NCBI GenBank assembly: GCA_021292105.1
Contig: CM037857.1
Span: 38,416,916 to 38,480,915 of the forward strand
Reading direction: 5' to 3'
Length of the DNA: 64,000 bases
Source of the DNA: Anadara kagoshimensis
Lineage: Eukaryota > Mollusca > Bivalvia > Arcoida > Arcidae
The position numbers were made by a program, and so were the translations under genes. The notes below the pieces were generated by a model. The model was given only the letters and a program-made list of their open reading frames with translations, was not told the DNA's origin and searched no databases. Below are positions 624 to 44,875 of this stretch, in pieces. Each line of letters begins with the position of its first letter. Position 1 is the first letter of the stretch.

Positions 624-751
624 CTTTGATTTTATAACACCAGCAAATGTATAAATAAATGGATTGATTGCAGAATTTATCGGCAGCACAAAGACAACTA
701 TCCATGCATAAACCCCTCTAGGAATAAACACTCCGGATAACGCCAATACAA
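624..751 (-). CDS. Exon: TM7 of the receptor
   Basis: Acceptor TTGTTTCAG at 752. It encodes VLALSGVFIPRGVYAWIVVF and then LPINSAINPFIYTFAG, ending VIKSK in phase 0 with a GTAATT donor. NPFIY is the rhodopsin-family NPxxY motif in the LGR form, so the seven-helix domain is complete here. The cytoplasmic tail must be on further exons to the left. Confidence 0.92.
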
Positions 752-3700
752 CTGAAACAAGTTAAATACACGATAAATTCTAATAGGATAGGGGAGGTAA
801 TCCCTATAAACAAATGATCATTTAAATAGTATGTATTTTTTCAATTTGACTTTACACACGGCGTTTTTGACATATTGCATCTGTTATAGATGTAGATGTG
901 GAATGCACTTTTGTGGCGAACAACAAAACTAGACTTTGATGGTTTTTAAATTAGATATGAATCAATCTTTTAAAAAAATATTTTGTCAAAATAAACAACT
1001 GTTTCTGCTTTTTATTTTACTCATTTTCAATCGCGCAGGAGTCGCACAATTTTTGCAAATAATAATGTATATTTTAGTGCATATTCTATAGGGCAGGATT
1101 TATGGTTTACATTATAAATTGGTTTTTGGCCCGTCAAACATTTTTAACCCGCTTTGTAAAATTTGATTAACAATTGAACTATTTAGAGATGGCGTCCACA
1201 GTCAATATGAATGCCAAACCTTTGAACGACAAACTGAATAATGCGCGATATTTGTTTTTATAATTTTTTAATAGTTTTGAGGGTTTATTTGCATTTAGTT
1301 CTGGGATCATATTTTCGAGCGTTTCGACCACGATATTGAACGTGCAAGACGTGAAACTGTAGTCACACGAATATGTACTGTGTATTTACGTATACTACCT
1401 GGAGTAGTTGTGTATTACGTCACCAATATCGTCTTTGATTCGTTGCTCATCCGTTGGAAGGACACAAATGCATGTTCTATGATGTTGTAAAAATTTAAAC
1501 ATGCAGTAAAGGAACTATCTATTTCAGTGAGGACAATTTTCGATTTACACACCGAAACTTTGTAAAGTTTAAAAAACGACTCGATTATCAAACACAAAGG
1601 CATTTGATACCACGAGAAATTAACCATTTGGCAACATGGAAGCAGCCATTTTGTTTTTCAGGGTATAGTTTCGGAATGAGAATTGCCAATATTAATATCA
1701 AAACGCAATGATGTGGGCGTTTGGCATTTATAGTCATATTACTACCATTGCTCTCAAACTAGAAGAAATATAGGAAATACTCAAGGACAATGAAAATAGT
1801 ATTATATAATTACAGTTATACATATTTTGACAAATATTTAGTGAAAAAATTCAACATGTCCCATAGGAATTTAACTTAAGGATTTAAGCATATAATGTCC
1901 TAAATTTTAATTTACTCACCCATAATTCCAATTGGAATCCAGCAAAAGAAGTCTGTCATTACGACCCATGCCAACATATATGCAACAGACTTTTCATTTG
2001 GAGTCAATTCTCTTTTTGTTTTTGATGCTGACATTAATATTTCTCTGAAAATCAAAATCTGACCTATGCCAAGCAAGCAAAACAGGGCAAAATTTACCCC
2101 CAGGAATAATACAACCGAATATGTCAATCCATCCTGGAAATATGAAGTAATTGGCAGTGCAATGCAGATACCAGAAGTGGAATAAAATTCAGGATAAGGA
2201 AACACGGGAATAAATGCAAGTATGAAGGCAAAAATCCAAAAACAGAATGATATTACTCTGCTTATTGATTTTGTCAATCGTTTCCCGCCTAATGGATATT
2301 TAACAGCCAGAAATCTGTCAATTGTTATTAAGAATATAAACCATACAGACGCCTCGCTGGACATTAAAGACAACATTCCTGATATTTTACACAAAGTGCT
2401 TTTACGCCAGTCATATTCCATCCACGCATAATGGCCTCGAAACATTGCATCGTGTACAGCTATGATTAAAAGATAAAACCCCATCAAACCATCCGAAAGA
2501 CTTAAATTATGACAAAAATGTTAAACGTCCCAGTTTGCCGTTTATCAATCAAAAGCCTTTTTATAAGTACTCCAATATTTCCGACAAAAGCAAAAACTGC
2601 CACAAGCCATAGAAAAACTCTTAAAACAGGGTCCTGGATAAGATCTGTGCAACTTGACACATCATATATTGGTGCGTAACATGCTTGGACAGATTTAGGT
2701 TGGATGCAACAAAAGGAATAAGAATCACTGTATATAATTTTTAATTCGTTGTTCGTTTTGAATATGTCAGATGTCAACTTTATGTCGTTACCGCGCATGT
2801 CAATAAGCGCCAGATATTCAAATGGATGAAGCACAGTTTCGCCGATAAAGTTAATATTGTTAGAACTGATGTTAAAGTGAATAATTTTGCTCATATTCCA
2901 GAAACTCTCTTCATTTAAAATGAAAGCTTTGTTGAAGAAATACTCAAATTTGTTATATGTTTATATGCCGCAAATGTGTCCTCATAAATATTTTCTACGA
3001 GAGATTTTCCCGATAGCTCTAAAGTTTCTATGATTTCAACATTTCTGAATATTTTAGCTTTCGTGATCTGTCGCAGAACATGAATAGAAGAAGCCAGTGG
3101 TGTTTCAATTTGCCTTGTGTAGTTTTCATTCTCTGTTTGTTCATCGTATCTAAGATACAGTGAACATTCTGAAGAAACGAATTTCTTTAACGTGATGAAT
3201 TTAGCAAAAGGGTGACTATCCCAATTCAAAAACCCCGAAAGTCCTGGTTCATCCATTATAGGTTCCGATAGTGGATCGCAGTGTAGCTTTAGAACACCCT
3301 GTGAACAATTGACGCTGCTGCACCTTTCACAAAAGATTTCATCGATACCCTCAAAACAGGTTGGTATTCCGTCACAGATCATTGAAGCATTCAAACATTC
3401 CCAATAACCATAGGTTCCCCAGCAGCGCGCGTATTCAGGACAGCTTGGTGTAACATCTAAAATAAGTAATATATAATAAATTAAATAGCATACTAAATAA
3501 AATTACTCGGAAAAAGTCTTATAACTACTAACACAAGAAATTAAACCAAAATTAGCCAAACCAAAATATACACACACTGAAAACTGATAATATAACTCCC
3601 GAATTGAGAATGTTAACTGAGACATATTGTGTTCTATATTTTATTTACCACAATACATTGTCGTTACAAAATGAAAAAAGGTCTCCCGGTAAAGGCATGG

Positions 3701-3913
3701 TCTTAAAAAGCCGGATTACAGATATCAGCCTCTTTCACGGCCCAGTGTTGAATTCCATTCAGATAGATCGTACTAGGAGAAAGTTTGACAGCTGACATCT
3801 GAATGTCAGTGAGCTCCGATGAAATCCACTATCCTTGAAATGTCCACCTCTTATATAAGTGAACTAGCGCGACACGCCACTTCACGCCATTTCAATAAAT
3901 ACTTGGTTAAAAT

Positions 3914-3965
<52 letters not shown>

Positions 3966-6900
3966 GAGAAACTCTTTCAATTTATATACATTTTATTTAA
4001 TTAAAATGCAAAACGCGAAAGCAGTAGGTGATTTATATTGCCATGGCAATTTTCATCGAGTAATTTTATGGTTAGACGTTGGACGAAAATAGTTAGATCT
4101 TGAACCCCATTTAACTTAAAATTGGATTAGATGTGTTCTAACCCGATTCCATTTGTTACTGATTACATTCATGTGATCTAGTCTGAAGTTTAAAAAAATC
4201 GAGTTCATAAACCTGACGTAATTTGTGTTTGTTGTTTAAATGTTGTCAAACACTGAAATAAGAATTACAAGTATCGAGATAAAATATCACCAATAAAGTC
4301 AACGATCTTATTAAAACTTACCAACTTACTTACTTACTATTATCATAACATTCTTATAAAACTGAAATAACGTGCAAATTTACCTTTAGATTTCAGTTTT
4401 ACGGCTTTTATTCCATTGATGGCGAACATACCCTTTGCAAGACTTGGAGGGCTATTGAAAGTACCTGTCCATTGATGAGTTTTTCTATTGAATGCATCAA
4501 TTTTATAACCTGTTCCATAATAACAAATGTTTCCTACAATGTAAAATAAAACAATACCCGCATTCAATTCGATTTTGTATAAAATAAGAAAATGATATAG
4601 ATTGATTTAAATGACAACGTAACAGCGAAATTACTCGATACTTTATTCAATAATAACGCATAAATAGATTTTGTCTGAATTTAGTAGCAGCCTCAAAAAT
4701 AAATCGTCCCTCCCCCAACTTTTGTCTGATCCAATATGGGTCCGGGGTCCCCTTTTATATATTACTAGTATATGAGTTCGTTATAACATGGTGATGAAGA
4801 ATATATATGGGTTATTGGCAATTATTGTAAATAATGTAAAAATATTGATTATATCCATAACATTTCCGGTCAAAAAAAAGATCCTGGGTCCAAAATTTAT
4901 ATATATATAGATTACATGTTTCATGCCGATGAAGAATATATATAGATTATAGGTGATTGTCATTATAATAAAAAAGTGTTTTTTGGGGTCCAGAAAGTCA
5001 TAAAAAACAGGTCTATTACATATGACACTGTATATTTGTAGAAAGTTTTAAGTTTGTAGCTCTTGTCGTCTTTGAGAAAAACACTGGACAAAAAAAATTT
5101 ACAGAAGAAAAAAAGAAACAGTACAAAAACAAATAAGTCGCCCCCGAACTTCTTTACGGGGTGATTTAATAACATGTATTCAGTGCATAGTCACAATGTA
5201 ATTGGCAAAACTGTAAACGTGTTTATTTTCGCGGTGTACTAATTTTCGCTTATTTCGCGGTCGTTTGTTTTGCCCGAAAATTATATTATACTTATTGTGT
5301 TATAGTGCATTTTTAAAAAAACGCGAAAATTCAACTACGACAATATGTTTAAATTTCCCATATCGCGAAAATAAATACACGCGAAATTAAATACGTTTAC
5401 GGTAATTTAAACTGAAGATTTTAAGTGTTTGTAATTTAAACTATAATTTGATTATCAAACCTTTTCAGAATCATTTTATTTCATATATTATTAATATACC
5501 TGTTTTATTTTTGCAGCACTAAACGGTCTTCCTAATCATTATTGTTTGGACTAAAATCGTTGAAATCCAACCATTCAAAAGATGTTAAAATGGGAAGGAT
5601 AGAAGGACCAAACTGTATTTTACCAAATGCACATAAGGCAATACTTTAAACGAATAAGTAGAGCTTAGTTGTTTTTTGTTAATTGAAGGATTTCCACTTG
5701 AGGCTCAACAAATAGTTCACTTAAAACTCTTTGCTCAGCTAAATATTTTATATGTTTGCATCTACTGATAGACTCAATACCATTTGTTTATCTGCAACAC
5801 TATGGAGAAAATGCAATAGCACACTTAAGCCCTATAAGTATGATATAAGACACATTAGAACATCAGATTAGAAACACTACCACAAATGTCATACACCGCT
5901 TCAACTTATGTTTAGATTAACCCTAGAGATAATTACACATTATACCAGTGATAATTTTACAGCACAATATTGCGATGCGATATACAATTCATCAAAGGTG
6001 CTTTGACTAAAATTGTGAAACCAAAATTTCTGTATATTTTTTTTCCAGATTTAGCTAAGGAAATACTTTCCTTAAGGTAGTATGCCTTAATTTTTGAGAG
6101 TTTTCATATTTTAACTAGCAGGGAATCTAGATAAAGGTATATTTCTGACAGTACAAAAGTATTATCTACTAACAAAAATTGTTTCGTCTTGACTAGCTGA
6201 AAAAGTAATACTGAGACCTGAAATATTGTACATAATACTATGTGTAAAAAACGACATTTTCATACAGGCATTATATATGAATCTCAACTAATGGTGTACA
6301 CAGAACTTGAACTGTATATATTTCCAAGCTGGTAAATTGCATTAACAAGTAACATAATAAAATAATCAAAAACTAAGGTATACTCTCCCATGCATTTCCT
6401 TAGCTAAACTTGGTTTAATATATTTTTGTCCTTTGGATAATATTTCAACCACTTGATTATTTTTTGGTTTACAATTTTAGTATATGCAACATCAGGTACG
6501 TATGAAACGAAAGGTACATGTAACTACTAGTAACTATATCCAAGATAATTTTTTATTAAGATACATCATACTTAAACAATATTTGATGTTGGTCATAAAA
6601 CATTTTGATGACAATAATATACAGTCAAACCTGTCTATAAAGGCCACACATAAGAAACAGTAAAATGGAGAGATATTGGTGTATAAAAAGGCACATTTTT
6701 CTAGTGAATTGTCTTTATACAACTTATAAATATACAGCTCATTACACAAGAAATGTCACACCCTAATTTCTATAAAGAAACATACCCCTGTTACAATAAT
6801 AGTAAGAACAAAAACGTGCATTTCATTTAAAAAAAGATCTACTTCGAGTCAGTGTCATTGCTTAGTATCAACTAAAGCTAATTAAACAAGCTAATTTACA

Positions 6901-8726
6901 GCTAGTATTTTGTAGAAGCACATTTTACTTGAATAACACAGTGAGGGAGCGTGTGATTAAAGTTTTGACATTCTGATGTCTTGATCTGATACCAGTGCTT
7001 TTTAACAGACTGACAAAACTCTATTGACGATTCCTGACTATCGTCGTCTTCTCTCGTTTCAAGAGAGTCCCACTAATTTTCAATTCATAAGAGGATATTT
7101 TCCAGGCCAGGCAATACAATTTCGTTGTTTCTTGTACGCAATTCACAATGAAAAATCCTGCTCAAATTCATGTTTGAGGAATTATGTCATAAAATAGCAC
7201 AGGCATACTTTAGCAGGTTATTGCCGCTTTAAATACTCAACGCTATCAAGCAAATAAAAGAAAGTGATTCACAAATTTATTGTGACTGTTTGGTTTTTTC
7301 TTCAGAAAAATAATTAATCTTTTAGCAAGACCTTGCTCCTGCTCATGCATCTAAATCGAAGACGTTTTTTGTAAAAATGAACAGTACTATCCTTGACTGG
7401 CCCTGGAATTTTCGCAATATAACTCAAATTGAAAAAAGTGTGACTTCCTTAAAAAGAAAGAAAGCGCAGATAGTCCAAAAGCGTTAACAGAGTTTAGGCA
7501 ATCTGTTAAAAATTACCGATATCAGATAAAGAAATTAGATTGTCAAAATTTGTATACCACACTATCTTGTCGTATTATGGCTGTTTTTCAAGCTTCTACA
7601 AAGTACTAGCTGCTAATTAGCTTGTGTTGATACAAAGCAATGTCAATGGTTAATCACTTCTAAATGAAATACAATTTGTTGTATTTATATTTTTGTCCCA
7701 ACAATTATCGTATTAGGGGTGAAGTTTATTTATGGAAATTAGTGGATGACGTATTTTGTTTAATGAGCTGTATTTATACATGTGTTTTTTTATATCGTCT
7801 TCGTATTTCATTGTTTTACTTTAATATTTTGTCAATCGCGCTAATTATTGCAAAGTACATCTATCGAAAAACACCAATTTTTATTACATGCATATGATAA
7901 TTATGTTAACTTATAATGGTTTACCAGAGTAATCCAAAGCAGATGGTGCATTTAGGTTATTAGACGAAATGGTCATGTTATATCCATGTGAAGACGGTAA
8001 TGCATCAAGATCTCTGTGGACAATTTTATCTTTATTAAGCCAATACAACCTTCCATTCATATAATCGACAGAGAATGAGTATGGTTCTTTAAGTGATGTT
8101 GATTTTAAATATACATCTGTTCGTTTTCCGTTTACTCCGCTCCTGTAAATCGCAGCCTCTGGTTCCCAAACGGACCAATAAATATGCCTGAAATAAAATC
8201 ACAATATTGTTGATATAATAGTATGATATGTGTTTTGTTTCCAAAATCATTCTGCATAAATTGGACGTCACATTGTTTCATGTTCCTTTTATTCACAATT
8301 TAATTTGATTACACTCGTGACAGTTGTAGCTAGCTTAACAAGAGCTGCCGCCAACGGAGCTCCCTGTCCTGCTTCGATATTAAAATTTCTTTTGCTTTAG
8401 ATTTATAGATGGACAAAGATTGGAATGTTTGTTTTTTTATTTTCCCATAGCGAGAGCGTTATTTTAGAACGGTAATGTGACGGAACATTGCCCGTTCTAT
8501 AAATTCTATCAAAACCCAATTGCGATTAAGTTAAAGAATAATGCAATCATATTTCTACTTTTCTCTGTAAGTCGTATGTAGGAAGTAGACGTATGTAAGA
8601 AGCGGCGTAAAAATATCGACACGTCTCTCGTGCCAATGAGAAATGCTATCCTTGCCAGTTAAACTTTAATGCTCACGCAAGTCACTATATTATGAAATAT
8701 ATTCTTTGATGAAATGAATGTAACAG

Positions 8727-8779
<53 letters not shown>

Positions 8780-11700: not shown

Positions 11701-14700
11701 TTAGTTTTATTGGTTTTTTAAAACTCACCCATGAAATGAATCGATTGTCATGGCTACGATTGGAGAGTTGGATTTCACAACTGTAATTTCTTTACCATCT
11801 CCCGTGAGTGATTTACCTTTAATGGTTTGGGACGAAAACACACACCAGTAAAGCATTCTTGTAATCCAGTTAACACCTATTCCACATAGCCAAATTTCAT
11901 CTCTCTCCTTCACCACTAGCTGTGACCATCCTATGAAACACAGATGATAATACAGTTTGTTAATTTAAAACGCTTGGTCCATCTGACAAATGAATTTGAA
12001 ATAGTTTCATTGGATTTAAGAATTTTAGAAATACACGCGATACATGCAATCAGACACATAACAGATTATAACATCATATAAAGTTATATCAAATATCGGG
12101 TTTCAACAGATCAAAATGCGGAAAATATGCCAACTGTCAACCGCATTCTTACTGATACCTTTGAAAACAAGCAAATGAAGTAAAAGACGTGATTTCAAGA
12201 GAGAAGTGAGGCCGGGTACCAAGGAAGACTAAGTACTTGTTGTCTCAGTTAGATACACTCATTAAGCGCGTAATAAAAATGAGAATAAAAACTACATGGA
12301 AGTATGAGACGTAAAATATATCCAACACGATCTTGAACAGAGACATGCAACTTATCTTTAGTATGTGACGATGACCATTAGCTCTTAAAACCCCTAGTTC
12401 TGTTGGTATTTTTGCTTTTATTCTGAGTCTGTTTGAACCATGTATTTGTCTGCAGCTTTGCCTCGTTGCATAAAGAGCATTTTGTACGAGCAAGCTCTAC
12501 CATAAATTGGGATAGGGTGTTAATAGTGAAGCAAATATGTCGTAGGTAGGGTAAACAGGTATATCGCTGCATAAAAACGAACCATCACGTTTGTCAAAAA
12601 GTGAAAAAGTTCGTGACAAGTATTTACCAAGATATATGTAAAACAGATATAAATATCTCCTCTAATAAAAGGTCGGTACTTTTAAACGATGAATGACAAT
12701 ATCTCAGTGAGAGCAGTGACATAAAATATTTGTTCCACAGGATAGGTTAGTCCCTGTATTTTTTACATTTACAGGGCTATTAATAAATTACGTGTTACGT
12801 CGATTCTTTTCCGTAAGTTTAGATATTGGAAGAATGGCCCCTTAAACTTCAGTTTTAATGCAATGGCTTGTGTAAATACCTTTGAGGTCCTTTCAAATTC
12901 TGAGTGATTGTTAAAACAGTTATTACCTTAGGTTATACTAAAACAAGATATGTAAATTATTACCGGCCAACCCAAATGGTGATCTTCTGATAACTGGATC
13001 AATCATGCCTTCCGTCCAGTATACGACGTTTTCCACGGGATCGAAATCATTGTATCCTGGAACATTTGTACCATTATTCTGTCTCATAGTAACCTTTTTA
13101 TATTTGTCATCAAGCGATATAGAATATACACCGCATACTTCTGTTGTAATAATTGCGTCAGCTATGTCTACAATGAGATTTTAATTTTATAATAATGTAA
13201 CCCAAGGCTAAGACATGAATTTTTCAAAAAAATGACATACCATAAACATGTAGCTTTGAAGGCAAATCAAAATACCTAGTCACATTTGTATTTTTGCATG
13301 TGTCAAAAGCCATGATCATCATTGGGCAATAAAGTTAAAAAATGTTTACTATGAAGCAATTTCTCGACAAAATAAGTGATCATATCCATAGCTAAATAGT
13401 CAAACATACAGATACACTTTCTGTAATAAAAACTCTTGAAATATAAACCAGATTCAAGGTCATGAAACATAATTTGTTTATAGACAACAATTTTGTCGAG
13501 TTTTATTTAAAAAAACCTTCAAAGATAAAAAATGAAGTTTAATATTAATAATTATTAATAAATTACAAATGATGTAATGATTCGACGTTGATATAGACGT
13601 GAAACGTACAAGAGAGACAGACATTACCGTCAAAGCTTTAAAAATATTGGTATGAGAACATTAAGAACATTACGAAACTTACTCGGCAATAGTCACTGAG
13701 AATAGCCAGTTGTTTGTAATTAAGATATTACAAAACAACAAGATATCCGGAATACAAAGAAATGTTACTGAGGGCATAAATATCAAAAATAAACTTGAAA
13801 CTTGAAAAAAGGCACTGTAATGTATTATAGCCAGTATTGTTTAAGTCATTTGAGTCGTCCTATCAGGCGAATTGAATTAAACTTATGGCTGGTGATATAC
13901 ACAATATACGATGAACCTAATCTAACTTGTTTTAAAGATGTGCACAATTCTTCGAATTCTTAGTTAACCGGCTACTAATATTTGCAATTATTTTATTTTT
14001 CAATGTTACATTACCTGTGAAATAATCTGACGGTACGACTTCATCAAAATACGAACTTCTGTAACATTGGCAATTGAGGTATGGAATCAAAGAGCATGGA
14101 TCTATCACACACACATACAAAAAGAAAAACAGAAAAAGTAAAATAACTTCATAATTTAAAGAGTGAAGCAAACTAAAAGGTAATATCAGAATATTTATAA
14201 AATGTATGTCAAAATGAAGTGTAATATCAATTCCTAGTTTATTTAGTGTAGTTTGACTTTTACAAGTCTAAATGAAATTACCATAATTATGACCTATTAA
14301 AAACAAAGATACAGTTAAATGCTTAAATCACAACCACCCCTAAACACCTAAACAATGATGATTGAAAAATCTTAATATAGGTGTACAGTTTACACGTTGA
14401 ATTTCATCAGCAAAGTGAGGTCATGTGCTCCGGAGAAGTAAGAACCTCCTGTTTAGCCTGGAGGTCTTAAATTGACGACTGCATTAATTATAAAATGCGT
14501 ATGCCTAAATTTTTGTTTACGACTAGACTCATTAAGGTACCATTAGGAAATTTTATTTGGTCTTTTCCAAAATATGTTGTTACAGTGACAGTAGCATCAG
14601 AAACAATATACCAAGCCAAGTCCAAATCACAATACCAAAGCAAAGTAAAAACTTTGACAACTGGCAAATAAAGTTACATGTAAAACACATTTACTTTTAT

Positions 14701-15638: not shown

Positions 15639-15679
<41 letters not shown>

Positions 15680-29000: not shown

Positions 29001-29080
<80 letters not shown>

Positions 29081-32000
29081 TCAATAGTAACGACATGATT
29101 TTGGTTTAAGACCAAATATAAAACATTATTGAAGGAATAAATCGTATATTTTAATTAAATTTGGATATATGACATTCACACGTTTCCCAAAATTTTGATT
29201 TTAAGAGAAATATGCTCTGAATAAGAACATATGTTTCGGCAAACATGTTATTAGTTTTATACATTTTAAGCTGTATGACAAACGTAATGACTACACTTTT
29301 TGCATTGTCAACATTACTTTTCTATGCAACAATATACCTGGTCTTCCTGCGTATTTGTTTCCTAAGTATACGATATGGTAAAGCTTATTCTTACTATGTT
29401 GACTTTACATAACAAAACAAGCTGATTTTCAATAAATTATTGATCCAGGAATATTGCAAATCAAGGCTTATCAGGACTCTGAAAACGTTTTATGCCGTCA
29501 TCACAATATTGTTGATAAGTATGCCTCTGTGTCGAAGATTGCCCTAAATATATTAAAAACCTCATAGTATCATGCCATGTAACTTTCACGTTCAGTTTTG
29601 ATTACACACATGGTGGTCGTAGATAGCTAAACAGAAGGTGTTTATCCTGCTGCATCACCCGTTCTCACTTCCTTGATTGAATTTTTCGTGGTTAACCTGA
29701 TCTGACAGTTTCAAAACTTTATTTTGCCTTTTGAATTTTGTTTGAACATGGATTGGTATGTTTGTTTTTGATTTTGCTACTTAATATTCATTCTTCTTTA
29801 CTTTTAAAGAATTTATGGTGGTCGTTTCATGCTAGCTCAAATCATCAGTCATGGGAATACTTTTTCCAAATGATTAGATATAAGTGTTTTCTTTTGCAAA
29901 CTTGATGACATACGTATTTGTAAATTTATAAAATTTTAGTTTTCTTACCTGTCACGTTACATGAAGCTTCATCGTGGAGCAAGGTGTCAGCGAAGGAACA
30001 ATCAAGTACGCCATCGCAAATATGCGCTTGAGATAAACATCTACCCTCTATACATCGGTAGTAATTAGTAGGACAATCTAAAAAAACATGAAAAATTAAC
30101 GACGTGACAGCTAAAACGAAATATGAAAAATGAACTTGAAAAGACGAATGAAAAAAGAAACAAACACAAGTCAAATATAATCTTTAAAATAATTAAAAAA
30201 TTATGTTCATTGTCTCTAAAATCATAGAAAAGATGTTATATATACTAGGGCAATATCGATACACTCGTCATCTTACTGCTAGAAGAGAGAAATGACGTTA
30301 ACTGTCGTGTAATTTATCCTATTGGCCTATTTTAATTTTTCTATAGCAAGATAGTCTTGCCTCTTGAAAAATTGACTTGTCTCATAAGAAACAATATCCC
30401 AGTCAAAAATGGCTTATGAAGCACATTTAAATAAAACAATAAATCGATGTTACATTTAATAATATAGGGTTATTGAACTGATATTGTTAAATATTGTCCC
30501 GAGTTGACTCGATATTTGCACAAGCATGCGAGGGACAATCGTATGACATCATAAATGACAGCGTCATGTGACAAAGCGTGCAATATGAAAAAAAATTGAT
30601 TCGGGAAACCTCGGACTGCAACAAAGTTTGCGTGCAAATATTGATATATATTGCACGATAACACCTCGGGATTTATCCTTTAATTTATATGTGATGCATA
30701 TATTGCTATATAATAATGTCATATAACATATAAAATACGTTTATAATATGTTTAGCATTCTATGTAAAACACTGTCTTAACTTAACGTAGAAGTGAAAAA
30801 TTGAGTCCAACCATAAGAAAGCCATGAATCAAGACGCAGGTGGGAATTTAATTATATGTTTTAATTTAATTATATTATGTGTTTTAATAAAAGAAAAAAG
30901 TCACTTAACAAATATAAATGCAGTTAGTTTCGCAAAAAAGTATATCGGTCATTTTGTCGTCACCAGTCGCAAAGATGACATTATTACTTAATATCATGGA
31001 TTCAGTAACAACATTTAAAATATACTCAACAAAAAAGTTAGTGACCGATGTATAACAGATAACAATCCAAGAACTGAAAAAATATAAACACCATCTGTAT
31101 TTTGTTCTTGTTCTCTTCATGTTTCAAATGATGTAATGAAGAAAAGATTTTTGTGCATGAAATCAAAACTCATTAAAACATTACGAAAAGTGCGAAGATA
31201 AAATGATATGATTTACGTTCTAAAAAATAATATAATGTATTTGATGCGGTTCTTAACTTTTTTGTTGAATATATATCTTACATACTATACCTGTGTTAAT
31301 TTTATACGAGGGGAGGTCAAAAGGTTCATAGAACGGGGTATATAAACAACCATACATTTTATTATTATTTTTCAATATAGTTCCCATTTATCCCAATGCA
31401 CTTAGCCCTCTTTTCTTTCAGACTGTCTACATCTTTGAAATAGAAGTCTTCGGTTTGGTTCTGAAACCATGCCTCTGTGGCAGCCATAATTCTATCATTA
31501 TCAGAAAATCTGATTCCCCGTAAATGGGGGTTCAAATTTCTAAATAGGAAATAATCACTGGTGCCAAATCGGGACTGTAGGGTGGCTGATTAAGTGTGAA
31601 CTTGCATTAACGAATCGCTGCTTGTACAATCCTTGACTTGTGCACAGGAGCATTGTCGTGAATAAGCAATACCCTTCGGCTAAACTTTTCCCTCCTTTTT
31701 GATTCAATAGCAGCTTTCAGCTGCTTCATTAGATCAGCAGAGTAATCCAAGTGATAGAGATTCCAGCAGGTTTATAATTGATTAACAGAACACCCTTAGA
31801 ATCCCAAAACACAGTGATCATGACTCCGCCAGCTGATGGTTGGGTTTTGAATTTCTTTGGTTGGGGTGAGCAAGGGTTCTTCCATTGCATGGACTCCTTT
31901 TGGTTCCTGGGTCCCAATGATGAATCCATGTTTCATCACCTGCTACTAAAAGTAAATGGAAGCTCCTCGGATTATCATTATAAATGCCAACAAGCTCATG

Positions 32001-38000: not shown

Positions 38001-41000
38001 ACATATAGCGTAGGCACTACAAATAGGGGCTCTACTATGCCCTAAACCCATGTTAAAAAACGATATCCAATTTTTTCAAACTCTGAGATGCCAAATTTTG
38101 TTCATAATATAGCCCTGACATTTTAGCAGTCATAATATTTAATGGGATGTAGCTATCGTTATTTTTACAGAATAATAAGTTTTCATGTTTTGTCGGATAA
38201 AGGGATAGCGGTAGTTGTCTGTGAAATAATACACTAAGTACGGAATTACATTTTACAATGTATTTTGTTTTTATTTGATTTTTCTTCATGGTCTTTATCA
38301 TGACCTGCTTTTTAGTTGCAACCCTTGTTTTTAACAGACTTTAAACTGACTTATTCACATTTTAAATTTCACCCAGGATGTTAAAGATGAAAAAAATTCA
38401 GGTGGAGATGCATATCTCGGCAGCATGTGCATTGATTCTTGTTCTTCTTTGAATGGCACGGGATCTCTATTCGATTCTAAAGGGAATGCTCGACATCATA
38501 CACTCTCAATTTCTCTCTAAAATGCGGAGATACAAATGACGTCATAGAAATAGATATATGACGTTATTGACATAAAATGTGACGTCGACTACTCTTGCCT
38601 ATAATAATTATCTATTTCATTAATTTTTAACCACAAAAAAACATTTTTAGTCAAGATTTTACTGTTTTAATATCATCGGCCCAATATCGGCCCACTGGCA
38701 CTGAAAGAATAACAAAATCGGCCCAATCGGTCCACTGGCACTGAAAGAATAACAAAATCGGCCCAATCGGCCCGCTGGCACTGAACGTACATGACAATCG
38801 GCCCAAATCGGCCTGCTGGCACTCTAAGGGTTATAGACCACTATGTTAGCAGCATATTTCCTGCTTCACTACAGATTATTATCATCATGGTTTCTGAAAG
38901 TCTTATACATTATGTAATGTAATTGTTTAACTTTATTTGTATTTAAGCTTGCATATTTCCTGCTTCACTTCAGATTATTATCACCATAGTTTTCAAAAGT
39001 GATTTACGTTATGTAATACTATCGTTTAATTTTGAATGTATCTAAGATCGCATATTTCCTGCTTCACTACAAATTATAATCATCATAAGCGTATTCTAAA
39101 GGGACATTTAAAACAAATCTGTCGAAAATTTAACAGTAAGTTAACGAATAAATGACGAATCGGTAGCTGATTTCGGCTACTAATCAATTGTATGTTGTTC
39201 TTTTATCATCGTCATCCGCTACATATACTTTTGATCTTTCTGATACTTATATGTAAACCACTAATTATATATTAGCCACTCGACAGCACAACCTTGACTC
39301 TCTCTCTATAGCTAAATGTCAAACTCGGCAGCTATGTATTGTATATAATTGGTAATTCTATATACAGTAATTAATGTCATTCAAATCTAAATCACAATTC
39401 AAAAAAAAAAAAATTAAAAAAAAAAAAAAAACCATTTGACAACTGGTTGGTAAATTAAAATTATTCACGTTAACTTCCAACAATGAAGTGGGATAGGGAA
39501 TTCTTGCGGGGTAAAGACCTCTTCTCTAACTAGATCTTTACACCCACCACATGTAAAAACAAAATTAAGTTTTATAAAAACTTTATAAGAATGTTTTATG
39601 CTTTTATGTTTCAATCTATAATGCAATTTGTAACCATTGCAACGGGTTTTTCTCTCAATTTGTTGGCTCTTGATTGATCATGAATGTTGTATTTTGTAAG
39701 TTCTTACCATGGTCGGATCTTAGAGAAAAACAATGATTTTTACCTTGAGAGCTTTCAAATTGATACTGCAACAGGAAATTATTCCGTTTTGTTATTGTTT
39801 TTCCTTTGGTTAATTCATTCCATACTACCGATAAGTAGTTTCCCGACGATACGATATTTACTTCCATTCTGTTACAATATAGACTTCCTATTTGGGACTG
39901 AGATAGGTACATACTATTGAAAAATGTAAGGTGGCTGAAATGACACCTAAAACAAACAAAAAATGTTAGTACTCATATGACTTAAATAATATAAATGTGT
40001 TATTATCTTTCCACAGTAGAACCTCGATTTATAGCCACCTTTTAATTTATTCAATCAAATTATTATGAAACAGAGCACAGGGTATATTTTGAAGAAAAGC
40101 ATAGAACAGATGGATTCTGGTACTTCAAATTGTTGTGGCGATGTGTGAGGGGGCAAAGGTATCGAGGGGCATCATAATGAGGGTTTATTTCATCATCTAT
40201 AGTTTTAACAAATTTATTGTATCTCCATTCACGTTTGTAACAGTGTGGGTTGTAAATTATGGAATTGTAAACTCTAGATCTATAATACGTTAATAAGAGA
40301 AATTCAACTGACTATAGTGCATGTTGGTTTGATGTTTCATGTCTCTGTGTTTAGGATTGCCCTGGATTATTTGACGTCCCATGTTCTTTCACATAATTTT
40401 ATTAAACAGGAGGTGCATACCCTTCCGGAGCACCTGGTCTCCATGGTAGAAGTTCACATGTTTAACCTAACTTGTCAGTTACAAAGTTTTTACTTTGCTT
40501 CTGGATTGTGATTCGGACAATGATTAGTATGTTTGTTTTTGATTTTATATGATTCAAATTACTGTAACGAGAATCAACGGAGACCATAAACTGTCTTTAT
40601 GGAAACCTGCTATAAATGATGTAAGTGGTTGCTAAAGCTATATGAGGAAATCAACAAAATTGTCATATTATAATGCTAAGAAATATCTAAATGAAATGTT
40701 AAAAAAATATCTAAGCTATATTATAAATATTAAATTATTTCAATCAGAGAATTCAAAAAGTTATAATATGACAATTCTAACCAAAGCTTGGTACACACAT
40801 TAGCTTATACATACGAGTGGTGAATAATGAATGACCTTTGTCTGTAATATTCGGAATAACAGAATTATAAACGTTTTACAATTTATATAAAAACATATAA
40901 AAGTATTGTTGCATTTTACTTGCACTTAATACAAATGTATGTCAGGCGTTACGTGTATCTGTAGTAAGAATGTACATTTCATTCGTAACCAACGTAAGTA

Positions 41001-44000: not shown

Positions 44001-44875
44001 GTTTAGAGACAAGTTTTAAAGAATCTTCAAAATTGAGGGTCTTATTGTCATAAGTTTAATATTACTACATATATAAACCACGTTGTTTGAATCTGTTTGT
44101 GATTTGACGAATAGAAAAGAAAAGAAAATGCTTTGTTCTAAAACACATTTCGTAAACATAAGTAAATGCATAAACATCTAGTTTTAAGAAGAAAAAACCG
44201 CGCGCTTGAAAAAATGGGTGGGTGGTCATGGTCCTCCAAAAGTATCTGAACATGTCTGATCTTTGGTGAGATGGGTAGGGCTGTCCAAGAGTACTTAAAT
44301 ATGCTATATACATGTAGTTTGGAGAAGAGTTCCAGGTCTCCATGATTCATTGAAAAATACCCCTGGGTGTCGCTTTATCGTTATATCCACTATTCATTTG
44401 AAATGGGGAGTTTTATAATGTGTGGTCATAATTTTTCTATTATTTTTTGTTTGTTGTTCTTGGTTGGATTTCACTTAGCCTTAGAATGATTACAACCAGT
44501 ACCACGTGGTCTATTAAATCAAAACAAAAATATCGTTCCACGTTGAATTCACAATCCCCAAAGCAACGTAAAATGTTAAAACTGGCACATTAATTTAGAG
44601 AAGTGAACTATCAGCATAATGCTCCAAAATGGAAAGTAATTTAAACTATTTAAAATATGTAAAGAAAATAGTTTCCATGGATACTTACTGTTGGTCGTAT
44701 TTGAGATCGGAATAGTCCATTTCCATCACAATGGATTTCAGCTTTATGACCTTGTTTACTGGGGCCTTTATGGTCCAACAAGCAGATGATCGGTCTTGGA
44801 GTTTAGGTGTAGATATAAAACCGCTACTTTCTGTTAAGACTACATCACACGTTTTGGTCGACTCGTTCCCTGTGC
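624..44875 (-). CDS. Chimeric LRP-like / LGR-type G-protein-coupled receptor (16 exons traced, both ends missing)
   Basis: A multi-exon gene of about 4.5 kb coding sequence (roughly 1,500 residues). Exons, in transcript order: 44689-44875, 39744-39946, 29949-30077, 27700-27877, 26541-26713, 25712-25831, 24718-25120, 23616-24010, 15030-15182, 14015-14101, 12964-13167, 11729-11930, 7925-8187, 4384-4533, 1920-3456, 624-751. All junctions show AG acceptors and GT donors and the phases agree from end to end, mostly phase 1, as is usual for shuffled extracellular modules. Domain order: CUB, LDLa, CUB, LDLa, YWTD propeller, EGF-like, second YWTD propeller, LDLa, LRR, seven-helix domain. The last part resembles the GRL101/relaxin-receptor branch of LGRs: a plasma-membrane receptor expected to couple to G proteins. 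The ligand is unknown; the modules suggest a protein or lipoprotein ligand. The signal peptide and most of the tail are not found. Two one-base frame breaks lie in exon 1920-3456, so the locus could be a recent pseudogene or contain assembly errors. Confidence 0.85.
752..1919. other. Intron between TM6 and TM7 exons
   Basis: AT-rich intron DNA. I see no repeat, RNA or coding signal in it beyond short chance reading frames. Confidence 0.6.
1920..3456 (-). CDS. Exon: LDLa 3, leucine-rich repeats, LGR hinge and TM1-TM6 (with two frame breaks)
   Basis: Begins with an LDLa module (CPEYARC, WECLNASMICDGIPTC, GIDEIFC; the calcium-site Asp of DC is replaced by Thr). Then about four 24-residue LRRs, such as IIHFNISSNNINFIGE and LALIDMRGNDIK. 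The LGR/GRL101 hinge follows (SYSFCCIQP, SSCTDL). TM1 is at about 2562-2627 (FVGNIGVLI) and TM2 reads NLSLSDGLMGFYLLII. TM3 ends in IDRFLAVKYP, a DRF variant of DRY; TM5 and a TM6 with WVVMTDFFCWIPIG come next. The frame must shift by one missing base near 2915-2925 (inside an LRR) and near 2500-2507 (between TM1 and TM2). The exon is 1,537 bp where 1,539 would keep phase with both neighbours, in exact agreement with two single-base losses. Confidence 0.88.
3457..4383. other. Intron with (TA)n tract
   Basis: Intron before the LDLa 3 exon. It holds a (TA)n microsatellite at about 3916-3962 and is otherwise unremarkable. Confidence 0.6.
4384..4533 (-). CDS. Exon: YWTD-type propeller 2, last blade
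   Basis: Encodes NICYYGTGYKIDAFNRK and THQWTGTFNSPPS, ending in a strand GMFAINGIKAVKLKSK. The motif is degenerate (CYYGTG for YWTD) but the position and length suit the closing blade of the propeller. Phase 1-1. The next exon begins with the third LDLa module. Confidence 0.8.
5211..5403. mobile_element. Palindromic MITE, copy 1
   Basis: The termini are inverted: CTGTAAACGTGTTTATTTTC on the left and the reverse complement of ATACGTTTACGGT on the right, around a GCGAAA-rich interior. A second copy lies at 36195-36411. No coding capacity. TIR-type non-autonomous element of about 195 bp. Confidence 0.7.
6020..6450. repeat. Dispersed inverted repeat with TTTAGCTAAGGAAAT core
   Basis: An arm at about 6020-6115 (ATTTAGCTAAGGAAATACTT) returns as an imperfect reverse complement at about 6370-6450 (CATTTCCTTAGCTAAACTTG). 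Related single arms occur at about 27285-27345 and 32690-32760, so this looks like a dispersed foldback-like family. Confidence 0.5.
6451..7924. other. Intron DNA
   Basis: Intron sequence. A 30-bp piece at 6621-6650 (CAGTCAAACCTGTCTATAAA) matches the terminal repeats of the element at 61580-62170. Nothing else is recognised. Confidence 0.5.
7925..8187 (-). CDS. Exon: YWTD-type propeller 2, third part
   Basis: Two blades are visible: HIYWSVWEPEAAIYRSGVNG with KRTDVY, and FSVDYMNGRLYWLNKDKIV. The acceptor TTTATTTCAG is strong. The donor GTAAACC is at 7924. The blades keep the propeller hallmark of a small residue and Asp/Ser after YW, and the RSGVNG turn. Confidence 0.9.
8729..8777. repeat. 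(AT)n microsatellite
   Basis: About 45 bp of uninterrupted AT dinucleotides in the intron, next to the 26-bp minisatellite. Confidence 0.95.
8945..11275 (+). repeat. 26-bp minisatellite array, about 2.3 kb
   Basis: Roughly 90 head-to-tail copies of a 26-bp unit whose core is AAAAGTATTGCATGACCAAG plus TATCTC. Variants alternate GCATGACC, GCATGGCC, GGATGACC and TTTGATGACC. Because 26 is not a multiple of 3, every plus-strand frame is open for long runs and repeats every 26 residues; these frames are artefacts and not genes. Within the array 10262-10681 and 10682-11101 are a 420-bp higher-order duplication with one visible mismatch. The array lies wholly inside the intron between propeller-2 exons 11729-11930 and 7925-8187. 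Confidence 0.97.
11729..11930 (-). CDS. Exon: YWTD-type propeller 2, second part
   Basis: Contains IGVNWITRMLYWCVFSSQTI, a diverged YWTD blade, followed by KSNSPIVAMTIDSFHG, which is the run-in to the next blade. Phase 1 in, phase 2 out, donor GTGAGT. It lies just 3' (in genome terms, right) of the large minisatellite that fills the next intron. Confidence 0.85.
11931..12963. other. Intron DNA
   Basis: Intron between two propeller-2 exons; nothing recognised in it. Confidence 0.5.
12964..13167 (-). CDS. Exon: YWTD-type propeller 2, first part
   Basis: Encodes VCGVYSISLDDKYKKV (a first, diverged blade) and then DFDPVENVVYWTEGMIDP with VIRRSPFG, a recognisable YWTD blade (D-P-x-x-x-x-x-YWTE). 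Acceptor CATTGTAG, donor GTAATA. This begins the second propeller on the C-terminal side of the EGF module. Confidence 0.85.
13168..14014. other. Intron DNA
   Basis: Intron sequence, AT-rich, without recognisable repeats or coding signal. Confidence 0.5.
14015..14101 (-). CDS. Exon: short Cys-rich linker after the EGF module
   Basis: A phase 1-1 exon of 87 bp encoding DPCSLIPYLNCQCYRSSYFD and a short acidic tail with DYF. It has three Cys close together and leads into propeller 2. It may be an extra half EGF module or a propeller lead-in. Splice sites and phase fit both neighbours; the domain name is uncertain. Confidence 0.75.
14400..14460 (-). mobile_element. Penelope-like element 3' end fragment, reverse orientation
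   Basis: The reverse complement reads GCTAAACAGGAGGTTCTTAC followed by CTCCGGAGCAC, the conserved core of the dispersed 3' end. Confidence 0.5.
15030..15182 (-). CDS. Exon: EGF-like module between the propellers
   Basis: After a charged linker (KKKEDEKD) it encodes QCKKDNGGCSHLCLAAPYP and YSCACGDGYMVLKKKEC. This is the LDL-receptor/LRP type of EGF module (NGGCSHLCL, CACGDGY) that always packs against a YWTD propeller. Phase 1-1 exon. Immediately 3' lies the 87-bp exon that extends this region. Confidence 0.92.
15638..15676. repeat. (CT)n microsatellite
   Basis: About 38 bp of CT dinucleotides in the long intron between the EGF exon and propeller 1. Confidence 0.95.
15767..16015 (+). repeat. 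Diverged partial copy of the ~400-bp tandem repeat
   Basis: Shares with the two units downstream the blocks ATTACACAGTTTTCAAACTT-like, AATATACAATAC, CATACTAGTACGGTATATTG and GAATTGTGACATCTATTTT. It is separated from them by about 600 bp. Confidence 0.7.
16240..16425 (+). repeat. Short degenerate tandem repeat (GGTTCAGAGGCCC type)
   Basis: Imperfect copies of a unit near 27-40 bp, for example CATGGTTCAGAGGCCCTAAT followed by CATCACCAGTGG. It opens two overlapping plus-strand frames by chance. Confidence 0.6.
16622..17430 (+). repeat. Two head-to-tail copies of a ~400-bp repeat
   Basis: Units 16622-17020 and 17021-17430 share block order: CTGCCTGATATATCACCCAT, ACTTTCTGAACAAAAATAAA, CCAAACAGAATCAATTTAGA, then TACTAGTACGGTATATT and TTGTGACAT. 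The offset is 398 bp at the first block. Diverged but clearly the same unit; no coding. Confidence 0.8.
17599..19226 (+). mobile_element. Tandemly duplicated fragment of a Penelope-like reverse transcriptase (broken)
   Basis: Two near-identical units, about 17599-18417 and 18418-19226, offset by 819 bp at the start and 810 bp at the end. In pieces of several frames they resemble an RT family known from many fish and mollusc genomes: LPYLYWIPKLHKNP-like, KTFDFSTLYTTIPH-like, MLEFLVDNIFVVFG, and a catalytic Y-I-D-D region. I read this as Penelope-like (Neptune/Poseidon type) from general memory; a LINE origin is not excluded. Both units carry several breaks and neither can be active. Confidence 0.7.
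19227..20482. other. AT-rich block separating two parts of the Penelope-like copy
   Basis: About 1.25 kb without recognisable coding sequence, lying between the RT units and the element's 3' part. A 20-base inverted match (18347-18366 versus 20483-20502, TTAAGGCCAAGTGGTACAAA) suggests that it entered as a DNA element, but no clear second terminus is seen at 19.23 kb. Confidence 0.4.
20503..21105 (+). mobile_element. Penelope-like element: RT C-terminal part and 3' end
   Basis: Opens with degraded coding sequence that includes LKLYDKRDKLNFS and a region like PxYGVFVSQFIRYG. It then runs into the dispersed 3' end: GCTTGCTAAACAGGTAGTGC, CAGGAGCACC, TTTTTACTTTGCTTCTGGA, ATGGATTAGTATG. Same orientation as the RT units at 17.6-19.2 kb, so probably one broken insertion. 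Confidence 0.65.
21106..22691. other. Intron DNA with minor repeats
   Basis: Holds a degenerate dispersed repeat at about 21830-21985 (GGAGGAAACCAGGTGTGC, then GAGAGGTACTGTGATC) that recurs at 48.04-48.22 kb, and a roughly 90-bp direct repeat (22040-22140 and 22430-22525) around ATTTTCAGAAGACACG / GATGCAAATATTTGTTTA. Confidence 0.5.
22692..23066 (-). CDS. Unrecognised 124-residue open frame in an intron
   Basis: An ATG-started frame encoding 124 residues (begins MEIRTIVSSTENIFLTPVTR, ends KSKNDRMLHR). It is basic, without membrane segment or known motif that I can see. It lies inside the receptor's 8.4-kb intron on the same strand. In AT-rich DNA a frame this long is uncommon but not decisive. 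It could be a remnant of a mobile element or of an inserted gene. No function can be assigned. Confidence 0.2.
   Translation of the reverse strand: MEIRTIVSSTENIFLTPVTRKSTFYTGAKFSCHVLFESDQANNPLQYLVLSDFKIRFHEKMKIIPDETHTHQIHDDIVILRKNVNRNDDITFRRQGLLHESGIFVVYKSRFLVQKSKNDRMLHR
23067..23615. other. Intron DNA
   Basis: Nothing recognised. Confidence 0.5.
23616..24010 (-). CDS. Exon: YWTD beta-propeller 1, second half
   Basis: Shows the best YWTD blades of the gene: GLALDLQKKHVYWTDPSLGQ with HRCNYDGSDRKL, then DTIYWTTYFSGDMYKCDK, and a closing strand KNLQIFNANLMLA. The previous exon plus this one gives about 265 residues, right for a six-bladed LDLR-type propeller. Confidence 0.92.
24718..25120 (-). 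CDS. Exon: YWTD beta-propeller 1, first half
   Basis: Starts FDHPWLLMSNESSLQLKSI, the expected first strand of an LDL-receptor class B propeller (compare the family's PxLLFANR-type start). It contains blade motifs GGSSILWTNDD and LGNIYWISEQT, followed by VSNGKGEYKRSLVSG, the basic residue-rich turn that follows each YWTD blade. It enters in phase 1 and leaves in phase 2. Confidence 0.85.
25470..25545 (-). mobile_element. Penelope-like element 3' end fragment, reverse orientation
   Basis: The reverse complement carries GGAGGTGCTTGCCCTTCCGG followed by AGCACCAGAC, the conserved core of the dispersed family. Confidence 0.55.
25712..25831 (-). CDS. Exon: LDL-receptor class A module 2
   Basis: Encodes CGSNYLKCPNNLCVPSSKVC followed by FNDCIDGTDEKNC. 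The six cysteines and the full calcium-binding set (D, DC, DGTDE) are intact, so this module should fold and bind calcium. Phase 1-1, about 40 residues, the family's normal size. It directly precedes the first propeller, as in LDL-receptor relatives. Confidence 0.92.
26541..26713 (-). CDS. Exon: second half of CUB domain 2
   Basis: Begins with the CUB Cys after the phase-2 intron (DCSDVIRISDGS). It shows the ICGQ Cys, the SNTSVIFMMF strand and GMGFQMRYQF, the usual CUB end. Donor GTAAAGT at 26540. A clean match to the CUB fold by motif order. Confidence 0.88.
27700..27877 (-). CDS. Exon: first half of CUB domain 2
   Basis: Opens with GQCGEMVPDDENTGLITS and continues with YPPDLFCQWKIEAPPGKYI, the classic CUB N-terminal half (Cys, G-x-I, YPP, C-x-W). 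It ends FYYNA with a GTAAGT donor in phase 2, at the same structural point at which CUB 1 is split. Confidence 0.9.
27964..28114. mobile_element. Long hairpin (MITE-like), ~62-bp arms
   Basis: The left arm AAGAAATGACATTC... GTTATCGATGCAAGTATG and ATGACCAGTCCAAATT is answered by its reverse complement ending TGTCATTTCTT. The loop is about 25 bp (GCATAACGGCAAAGCC). It lies upstream of the CUB 2 exon in the intron. No coding. Confidence 0.8.
28115..28997. other. Intron DNA
   Basis: AT-rich intron. A weak possible reverse Penelope-like 3' fragment lies at about 28700-28770 (ACCCTTCCGGAG on the minus strand). Otherwise nothing recognised. Confidence 0.4.
28998..29078. repeat. Compound (AC)n(AT)n microsatellite
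   Basis: About 28 bp of AC followed by 50 bp of AT dinucleotides. Confidence 0.97.
29250..29785 (+). mobile_element. 5'-truncated Penelope-like element (RT C-terminus and 3' end)
   Basis: Starts with a recognisable piece, FKLYDKRNDYTFCIVNITFL with NNIPGLPAY, the same region as at 20.6 kb. It then follows the same order of blocks (CATCACAATATTGTTGATAA, CACACATGGTGG) to the terminal TTGGTATGTTTGTTTTTGAT. Several breaks; inactive. It lies just left of the LDLa 1 exon. Confidence 0.7.
29949..30077 (-). CDS. Exon: LDL-receptor class A module 1
   Basis: A phase 1-1 exon encoding one LDLa module: CPTNYYRCIEGRCLSQ, then HICDGVLDC and a final HDEASC. All six cysteines are present. The calcium-site part is unusual: several residues are inserted between the DC and DE elements (DCSFADTLLHDE), where the family normally has DCxDGSDE. 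Confidence 0.85.
30078..31304. other. Intron DNA
   Basis: First part of the 9.7-kb intron between LDLa 1 and CUB 1. No recognised feature before the mariner element. Confidence 0.5.
31307..32587 (-). mobile_element. Mariner-family DNA transposon, 1,281 bp, transposase broken
   Basis: Termini are inverted: CGAGGGGAGGTCAAAAGGTT on the left and, reverse-complemented, CGAGGGGAAGTCAGAAAGTT on the right. They are flanked by TA duplications at 31305-31306 and 32588-32589. The transposase runs on the minus strand from an ATG at 32417. It shows the N-terminal helix-turn-helix region (FRTVIKFLTVEGSNAKKIHR), a GRPADVIT-like linker, then GDETWIHHWDP, and in other frames an HDNAPVHKS-like and a YSPDLAP-like segment, giving the mariner DD34D layout. 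The length is that of a full mariner. It needs at least three frame changes to read through, so it is dead. It lies inside the receptor's long intron. Confidence 0.93.
32590..33138. other. Intron DNA with an arm of the AGCTAAGGAA repeat
   Basis: About 32615-32790 resembles one arm of the inverted repeat at 6.0-6.45 kb (ATATTTAGCTAAGGAAAAAA). The rest is unassigned. Confidence 0.4.
33140..34386. mobile_element. Non-autonomous TIR element, unit 1 of a head-to-tail pair
   Basis: Begins AAGGTAGTTCCATACC and ends with its reverse complement GGTATGGAACTACCTT. Internal landmarks: GCGCCACCTGGTGG, TACAGCGCCACCTAT and ATAGGGGGTCGTCAA. No coding. About 1.25 kb. Confidence 0.8.
34387..35642. mobile_element. 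Non-autonomous TIR element, unit 2 of a head-to-tail pair
   Basis: Same termini (AGGTAGTTCCATAC ... GGTATGGAACTACC) and the same internal block order as unit 1, in the same orientation, with scattered differences throughout. It starts at once after unit 1 with no spacer beyond a base or two. Confidence 0.8.
35644..36122. mobile_element. Foldback element of CCGGAATAAT subrepeats, copy 1
   Basis: Ends CTAGAAGGGGGTTTTACC and (on the right) CCAAACCCCCTTCTGAT. The left half holds repeats of CCGGAATAATCAG type; the right half holds the inverse, GATTATTCCGG and TTACCGTAATAATCAG. The whole can fold back on itself. It directly abuts the TIR element ending at 35642. Confidence 0.8.
36195..36411. mobile_element. 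Palindromic MITE, copy 2
   Basis: CTGTAAACGTATTTATTTTC on the left and TTTAAATACGAATACAG on the right; the interior has TCGTTTGTTTTGCGTGAAAA as in copy 1 at 5211-5403. Confidence 0.7.
37021..37572. mobile_element. Foldback element of CCGGAATAAT subrepeats, copy 2
   Basis: Left end CTAGAAGAGGATTTTACCGA, right end CCGGTAAAACCCCCTTCTAG. The interior again has direct CCGGAATAATTAG-type repeats that become their inverse in the right half. It is about 70 bp longer than copy 1. Confidence 0.82.
37573..38671. other. Intron DNA
   Basis: AT-rich intron; a 104-residue plus-strand frame at 37595-37909 shows no motif and is probably chance. Confidence 0.5.
38672..38822 (+). repeat. ~40-bp tandem repeat, about 4 copies
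   Basis: Unit core ATCGGCCCAATCGGCCCACT followed by GGCACTGAAAGAATAAC; the last copy is diverged. Confidence 0.85.
38845..39085 (+). repeat. ~100-bp tandem repeat, 2.5 copies
   Basis: GCATATTTCCTGCTTCACTA, then AGATTATTATCATCAT, occurs at about 38850, 38950 and 39047, following directly on the GGCCC repeat. Confidence 0.8.
39086..39743. other. Intron DNA
   Basis: Holds a short poly(A) run near 39400-39431. Nothing else recognised. Confidence 0.5.
39744..39946 (-). CDS. Exon: second half of CUB domain 1
   Basis: The phase-2 junction puts a Cys codon first (CHFSHLTFF). It is followed by a second Cys (GSLYCNRMEV), the CUB signature IVSSGNYLSVVW and a closing LLQYQFE strand, then a short linker with one more Cys-free turn (SSQ). 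The donor GTAAAAATC is at 39743. Together with the previous exon it makes a CUB of about 115 residues, the family's usual length. Confidence 0.8.
40335..40545 (+). mobile_element. Penelope-like element 3' end fragment
   Basis: A residue of coding sequence (VSVFRIALDYLTSHV) followed by the conserved end: AGGAGGTGCATACCCTTCCG, GAGCACC, TTTTTACTTTGCTTCTGGA and the TGTTTGTTTTTGATTTT terminus. Confidence 0.65.
41310..42192. mobile_element. Candidate TIR element of ~880 bp
   Basis: CATGTAGGATAGGGAAAT on the left matches the reverse complement of ATTTCCCTGTCCTACATA on the right. The interior is very AT-rich and includes four 19-20-bp tandem copies of TTGGAATAAATAATTAAATA at 41560-41645. No coding. 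Only the termini support the call. Confidence 0.45.
42193..44688. other. Intron DNA between the two CUB 1 exons
   Basis: AT-rich. Near 43590 and 43735 are perfect short palindromes ACCACGTGGT and GTATCACGTGATAC around E-box-like CACGTG cores. Otherwise nothing recognised. Confidence 0.45.
44689..44875 (-). CDS. Exon: first half of CUB domain 1
   Basis: The acceptor is TTTTTATATAG at 44876 and the donor GTAAGTATCC begins at 44688. The exon reads TGNESTKTCDVVLTESSGFI and onward, with the CUB pattern of an early Cys, an SSGFISTP turn, a second Cys before W (SACWTIKAP) and an acidic VMEMDYSDL strand. It enters in phase 1, so at least one more 5' exon, carrying the start and signal peptide, must lie further right, but I could not identify it. 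Confidence 0.8.

Follow-up and report, generated by a model that had tools for sequence, protein, structure and literature searches.

The window, the whole 64,000-nucleotide stretch analysed here (C1:38416916-38480915 in the genome assembly that we searched, 1.115 Gb in 36 contigs), carries on its minus strand a gene for what appears to be a fused receptor. Fifteen exons with agreeing phases run from 44875 to 624, where a preliminary description of this DNA had counted sixteen; that number is reached with a candidate signal-peptide (SP) exon at 48961-48913. The modules follow each other in the order SP-CUB-LDLa-CUB-LDLa-propeller-EGF-propeller-LDLa-LRR-7TM, with one exon for the signal peptide, two for CUB1, one for LDLa1, two for CUB2, one for LDLa2, two for propeller 1, one for the EGF module, four for propeller 2, a single exon spanning LDLa3, LRR, hinge and TM1-6, and one for TM7. 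A second, collinear copy, in which some insertions are absent, lies about 400 kb away at C1:38013055-38053804. In both copies, all 16 exons have canonical AG/GT splice ends and consistent phases. The exons of the window copy are, in order of transcription and with the evidence for each:

48913..48961, minus strand: candidate signal-peptide exon, MKYYIYLWLVVFKVNF; phase-1 donor GTAAGT, in frame with CUB1
44689..44875, minus strand: CUB1, 5' half; Pfam CUB, phases
39744..39946, minus strand: CUB1, 3' half; exon scan, phases, Pfam CUB
29949..30077, minus strand: LDLa1; cysteine pattern, phases
27700..27877, minus strand: CUB2, 5' half; Pfam CUB, phases
26541..26713, minus strand: CUB2, 3' half; Pfam CUB, phases
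25712..25831, minus strand: LDLa2; Pfam, cysteine pattern, phases
24718..25120, minus strand: YWTD propeller 1, first exon; LRP2/LRP6 match, followed by a phase-2 intron
23616..24010, minus strand: YWTD propeller 1, second exon; Ldl_recept_b, LRP match
15030..15182, minus strand: LRP-type EGF module; FXa_inhibition 1.2e-9, EGF_LRP2 1.5e-7
12964..13161, minus strand: YWTD propeller 2, exon 1; LRP match, phases
11729..11930, minus strand: YWTD propeller 2, exon 2; LRP match, phases
7925..8187, minus strand: YWTD propeller 2, exon 3; Ldl_recept_b 4.6e-4, LRP match
4384..4533, minus strand: YWTD propeller 2, last exon; assigned by position, the best LRP stretches stopping before it; 0 mismatches between the two copies
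1920..3456, minus strand: single exon for LDLa3, LRR, hinge and TM1 to TM6; interrupted here by two one-base frameshifts, open in the second copy
624..751, minus strand: exon with TM7 (NPFIY); splice site, phases

Under the thresholds of our scan, the exon at 48961-48913 is the sole signal-peptide candidate upstream of CUB1 that is present in both copies. The module boundaries of the gene are nearly all of phase 1, a phase-2 intron lies inside each of CUB1, CUB2, propeller 1 and propeller 2, and intron lengths range from 591 to 9666 bases. Exon 1 of propeller 2 can be read in frame from the acceptor at 13161 in either copy, and from one at 13167 in the window copy only. A break of the second copy at this exon, as a wrong acceptor had suggested, could be ruled out, since an acceptor a few bases on keeps the frame in both. 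At the other end of the gene, the donor of the last exon at 624 belongs to the best 0.9% of GT sites; no convincing exon for a C-terminal tail follows within the window.

As the preliminary description had suggested, the spliced protein of the window was submitted to a profile search, with X placed at the frameshifts. Pfam recovered CUB (1.3e-15, two stretches), Ldl_recept_a (6.5e-11, two stretches), the FXa_inhibition EGF (4.5e-8), LRR_8 (3.4e-7), Ldl_recept_b (4.4e-5) and 7tm_1 (1.5e-28), the last over profile positions 1-260 of 260 and thus all seven spans. LDLa3 (3442-3320) stayed under the Pfam cut-off (0.74), yet the LDLa cysteine pattern is there. Scanned exon by exon, the signals were weaker: LDL-b appeared in one of the two propeller 1 exons, without a match to 24718..25120 alone, and in one of the three propeller 2 exons scanned, with no Pfam match to either 12964..13161 or 11729..11930 alone. 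Among solved structures, RXFP1 is nearest to the LRR-7TM part (1.4e-48, in an alignment that spans hinge and 7TM), followed by the unnamed GPCR 8w1z (3e-28), LHCGR (5e-27) and LGR4 (6e-16). The stretch from LDLa2 through both propellers matches LRP2 and also LRP6, the latter from propeller 1 via EGF into propeller 2. Propeller 2 by itself matches LRP2 at 5.6e-57 and LRP6 at 4.1e-27, mostly over its middle, and these values rule out a chance match. Together with the phases, the Pfam, LRP and RXFP1 matches bear out the modules, their order and their strand as first described.

The 7tm_1 match across seven spans makes the receptor a class A (rhodopsin) GPCR, and the succession of LDLa, LRR, cysteine hinge and 7TM makes it a type C (relaxin-receptor-like) LGR. 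At the same time, the LDLa, EGF and YWTD propeller modules are those of the LDLR/LRP family; in place of that family's single span and cytoplasmic tail, the propeller block continues into LDLa-LRR-7TM. The receptor has three LDLa modules, not the long LDLa array of the GRL101 type. Its 7TM retains DRF in TM3, CWIP in TM6, NPFIY in TM7, the TM2 aspartate and the cysteines of TM3 and ECL2.

It is conceivable that the locus holds two neighbours instead, a secreted or single-span LRP-like gene ending past 4384-4533 and a GRL101-like GPCR starting before 1920-3456. The intron at this junction (4383-3457) is 927 bases long and among the shorter introns of the gene. Ranked with leave-one-out weights from the receptor gene's own exons, its splice sites fall in the top 0.6% of the strand's GT sites (donor) and the top 0.4% of its AG sites (acceptor), a strength that argues against two genes. 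The content of the intron points the same way: it holds no candidate for a signal-peptide exon, and its polyA words are at chance level (three, against 2.7 expected). One weak candidate for a terminal exon is nevertheless present (acceptor 3616, score 4.4); its 21 hydrophobic residues, with no tail, would suit a separate upstream gene, but none of the three polyA words follows this candidate within the intron. A start for a separate downstream gene could be sought at 5175-5103, ahead of the last propeller exon, where a sequence weakly resembles a signal-peptide exon; it is one of ten such candidates in 60 kb and would need to skip exon 4533-4384. The prevalence of phase 1 is also compatible with two genes: because nearly all module boundaries are of this phase, agreement at a single junction says little by itself.

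Evidence bearing on the junction also comes from the rest of the genome. With the 7TM exon as query (84 of 527 candidates scored), at least 80 further loci were listed; these 80 leave out the two copies of the receptor gene and secondary N-terminal pieces. A propeller-EGF-propeller query gave 59 matches outside the two copies. Within 40 kb of 19 of the 80 listed loci, and on their own strand, a propeller match is found upstream; this makes 23 pairs, compared to none on the opposite strand. Seven pairs have the match downstream on the same strand, six of them involving the upstream propeller of another listed locus and one being unassigned. The LRP-type EGF module, for which the best 150 of 1716 candidates were scored, is found upstream on the same strand at 16 of the listed loci, downstream on the same strand at two and on the opposite strand at none. 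Uniform placement would lead to about 0.08 pairs for the propeller and 0.2 for EGF. In union, propeller or EGF stands upstream on the same strand at 25 of the 80 listed loci (counted by hand), and at none on the opposite strand, a bias that speaks against two genes in the window; the true gene number may be smaller, since there may be allelic pairs among the 25. These queries revealed no LRP-type module upstream of the other 55 listed loci, and the 5 kb upstream of one unlinked locus held no module.

Classical YWTD genes do exist elsewhere in the genome, as the two-gene arrangement would have it. As a control, the LDL-b profile (PF00058) was run across the genome and has 85 matches, none of them within 40 kb of a listed locus, the nearest being 565 kb from a listed GPCR; the GPCR-linked propellers are too divergent to show in the PF00058 list. 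No listed GPCR lies downstream of 36 of the 59 propeller matches, several of which coincide with LDL-b loci, while others lie inside clusters of GPCR loci. Clusters of propeller- or EGF-linked LGR-type GPCRs, several of them tandem, are seen at C3:64-67.5 Mb, C9:18.2-18.8 Mb, C5:22.4 Mb and C3:12.2-12.5 Mb. Several 7TM matches are paired on one contig with equal or near-equal scores, as if two haplotypes were present in one assembly. The CUB-LDLa head has strong matches solely in the two copies of the receptor gene and weak ones elsewhere; weak CUB and LDLa matches to it fall in one place at C5:6182098-6207219 on the minus strand. No relatives could be confirmed among viral contigs and in a collection of prokaryote genomes.

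The arrangement recurs in a paralogue at C8:24637600-24657599 (minus strand), where propeller exons, two EGF exons and more propeller exons are followed by an LDLa-LRR-7TM exon. In the 7TM this gene is 39% identical to the query, and in propeller exon 1b 22%; its propeller sequence seems to be more extensive than that of the window gene. Compared by eye, its propeller has a phase-2 intron at the same place as propeller 1 of the window gene (before MFF), and its last propeller exon meets the 7TM exon in phase 1-1, again as in the window gene; the recurrence of this junction at 39% identity in the 7TM argues against two separate genes. When the C8 propeller exon itself served as query, 13 of its 15 matches (its own included) preceded a listed locus on that locus's strand. 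Also opposed to two genes is the build of the 7TM exon, which is opened by an LDLa pattern after a phase-1 acceptor at 13 of the 27 loci scanned (L009, L012-L037), 12 of them credibly, as one acceptor looks wrong; the remaining 14 had no match to the LDLa pattern, some having shortened frames. To be weighed against one fused receptor are the two frameshifts of the window copy, the 55 listed loci at which no LRP-type module was detected, the limitation of strong matches to the CUB-LDLa head to the two copies, and the place of the window gene in a 7TM tree (below). Considering the strength of the splice sites, the recurrence among paralogues and the phase 1-1 junction in one of them, we judge two separate genes to be highly improbable. 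As first proposed, the locus very probably encodes one receptor, with an LRP-like ectodomain on a type C LGR core. On the same kind of evidence, it is likely that this is a multigene GPCR family of one animal lineage, in which an LRP-type YWTD-propeller ectodomain on a type C LGR core would wire capture in the style of lipoprotein receptors to G proteins.

A tree of 7TM exons was built from 36 family rows and RXFP1 (one further row, L019, was dropped for stops). In it, a single clade (100/99) unites 11 of the 12 propeller-linked rows. The window gene stands outside that clade on a long branch, beside 21 rows without a detected propeller (93/84), so that the label 'propeller-linked' requires two changes on the tree. 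Both an older fusion, with later loss or divergence past detection, and two fusions are compatible with this topology.

In the window copy, the fused-receptor gene is either broken or mis-assembled. Exon 1920-3456 ends in phase on both sides, as described before, but its frame is interrupted by two one-base shifts, the first in the LRR, near 2920, and the second ahead of TM2, near 2510. In the second copy, its counterpart (C1:38014352-38015890) is open, as is the gene throughout, with 16 exons, 0 stops and 1490 aa. Unique blocks of the two copies are about 90-98% identical. The exons differ at 24 of 4470 sites and the introns at 303 of 15021, as counted over the best stretch in each of 11 introns; this count leaves aside the two longest introns (38/904 and 44/6288) and the one that bears a satellite (279/2798). 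With the two longest included and the satellite intron left out, the sum by hand is about 385/22213. The satellite, 89 copies of a 26-base unit at 8946-11273 in the P2b-P2c intron, is present in both gene copies. Codon changes between the copies number 12 nonsynonymous and 10 synonymous, at about 3536 and 934 sites, respectively (P=0.008), where drift would be expected to give about 17 to 5. In the 7TM exons there are 0 nonsynonymous and 2 synonymous changes. The introns round these exons are nearly identical as well (junction intron 0/927 mismatches, the next 8/1169), and for this reason the likeness of the 7TM exons is no strong sign of constraint, and the low exon divergence is in part local.

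Two explanations for the broken frame come into question. The window copy may be a young pseudogene, either an allele or a duplicate of a functional fused receptor, a reading that we hold at somewhat less than an even chance. It is favoured by the open frame of the other copy and by the presence of two frameshifts in one exon, compared to stops inside the match at only 4 of the 80 listed paralogue loci, a count that overlooks frameshifts which merely shorten a match. The near-identity of the copies round the 7TM exons, introns included, weighs against it, since any loss would have to be very recent; assembly error may also account for the frameshifts. Alternatively, and with a probability that we likewise place a little short of one half, the frameshifts stem from errors of assembly or sequencing, and the assembler has failed to merge two alleles that are both intact. 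The collinearity of the copies, their likeness of about 90-98% in unique blocks and their insertion differences fit unmerged haplotypes, and several other 7TM matches occur as near-identical pairs; however, 76 of the 80 listed paralogue exons in the same assembly are without stops.

Within the open-licence literature searched, we found no described GPCR with YWTD propellers, in agreement with the preliminary description, although a description outside this literature, or unnamed database entries of this kind, may exist. The likeness to RXFP1 and RXFP2 (type C1 LGRs), which comprise the nearest solved-structure match, lies in the LDLa-LRR-hinge-7TM succession; we know of no propeller in RXFP1, whereas in the receptor described here the single-exon LDLa-LRR core comes after more than 900 residues made up of CUB, LDLa, EGF and propeller. 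With LRP2, LRP4, LRP6 and LDLR it shares LDLa, the LRP-type EGF and YWTD propellers, arranged propeller-EGF-propeller as in LRP6; it differs from them in its 7TM, LRP-type receptors having a single membrane span and a cytoplasmic tail. As far as the available text of the respective sources goes, RXFP1 bears a single LDLa at the N-terminus and nine LRR (PMC9545775), while the Lymnaea receptor GRL101 (type C2 LGR) has twelve LDLa and six LRR (PMC8286064, PMC11863921). By this description GRL101 resembles our receptor in combining LDLa, LRR and 7TM, but no CUB or propeller is described for it in the text available (PMC8286064, PMC11863921). Nematostella and Trichoplax are known to have type C LGRs whose N-terminus carries additional CUB domains, again like our receptor; the extras named in the accessible part of that source are CUB and fibronectin type II, not YWTD propeller or EGF (PMC9545775). 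The LDLRR-GPCRs of Ciona also carry LDLa repeats on a GPCR and have been proposed as sensors of lipoproteins or large protein complexes, but they are without LRR, and the available account describes no propellers (PMC2396169). A choanoflagellate survey, in the text available, counts LRR and LDLa among the extra domains found on rhodopsin-type receptors (PMC12716839).

How might such a receptor work? The ligands captured by LRP-type receptors include lipoproteins, Wnt-pathway proteins and protease complexes, while relaxin-type LGRs signal through G proteins in response to small protein hormones; in RXFP1, the LDLa-LRR-hinge block acts on the 7TM. By analogy, signal peptide, CUB-LDLa-CUB-LDLa, propeller-EGF-propeller and LDLa-LRR-hinge-7TM would form one cell-surface polypeptide whose ectodomain may capture a secreted protein or lipoprotein-like ligand. 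Binding would then reposition the LDLa3-LRR-hinge block, which could act on the 7TM as in RXFP1, and the 7TM would couple to a G protein, a step made plausible by the key motifs that it has kept. An endocytic or decoy device, whose 7TM signals no longer, appears unlikely to us: LRP-type modules are found mostly in uptake receptors and no tail beyond TM7 turned up within the window, both of which would fit such a role, but the retained DRF, CWIP, NPFIY, TM2 aspartate and TM3-ECL2 cysteines weigh against it. In the signalling receptor that we favour, the comparison to Wnt co-receptors is an inference from the LRP6-like order of modules alone. The many family loci, several of them clustered, suggest a recognition role, in immune, chemosensory or uptake sensing, rather than that of a receptor for one conserved hormone. 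That some GPCRs read large lipoprotein-like ligands has been suggested for GRL101 and for the receptors of Ciona (PMC2396169, in the text available). With both halves in one chain, the present receptor would offer a direct test of this idea, and its paralogues a set usable for ligand screening. It would also illustrate the extent to which phase-1 exon modules can be used to remodel the ectodomain of an LGR.

Apart from the satellite, the window contains several repeats and remains of mobile elements. In the intron between the second CUB1 exon and LDLa1, the stretch at 32453-31368 (minus strand) carries remains of a transposase that we take, from its frame motifs, to be mariner-like; the surrounding region, 30529-38842, has no match of at least 300 bases in the second copy. 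The same holds for 54877-52614 (minus strand), with broken frames of what is presumably a LINE-like reverse transcriptase. At 17596-19225 lies a tandem repeat with a unit of about 0.82 kb, where each unit resembles the second copy's other unit to about 97%.
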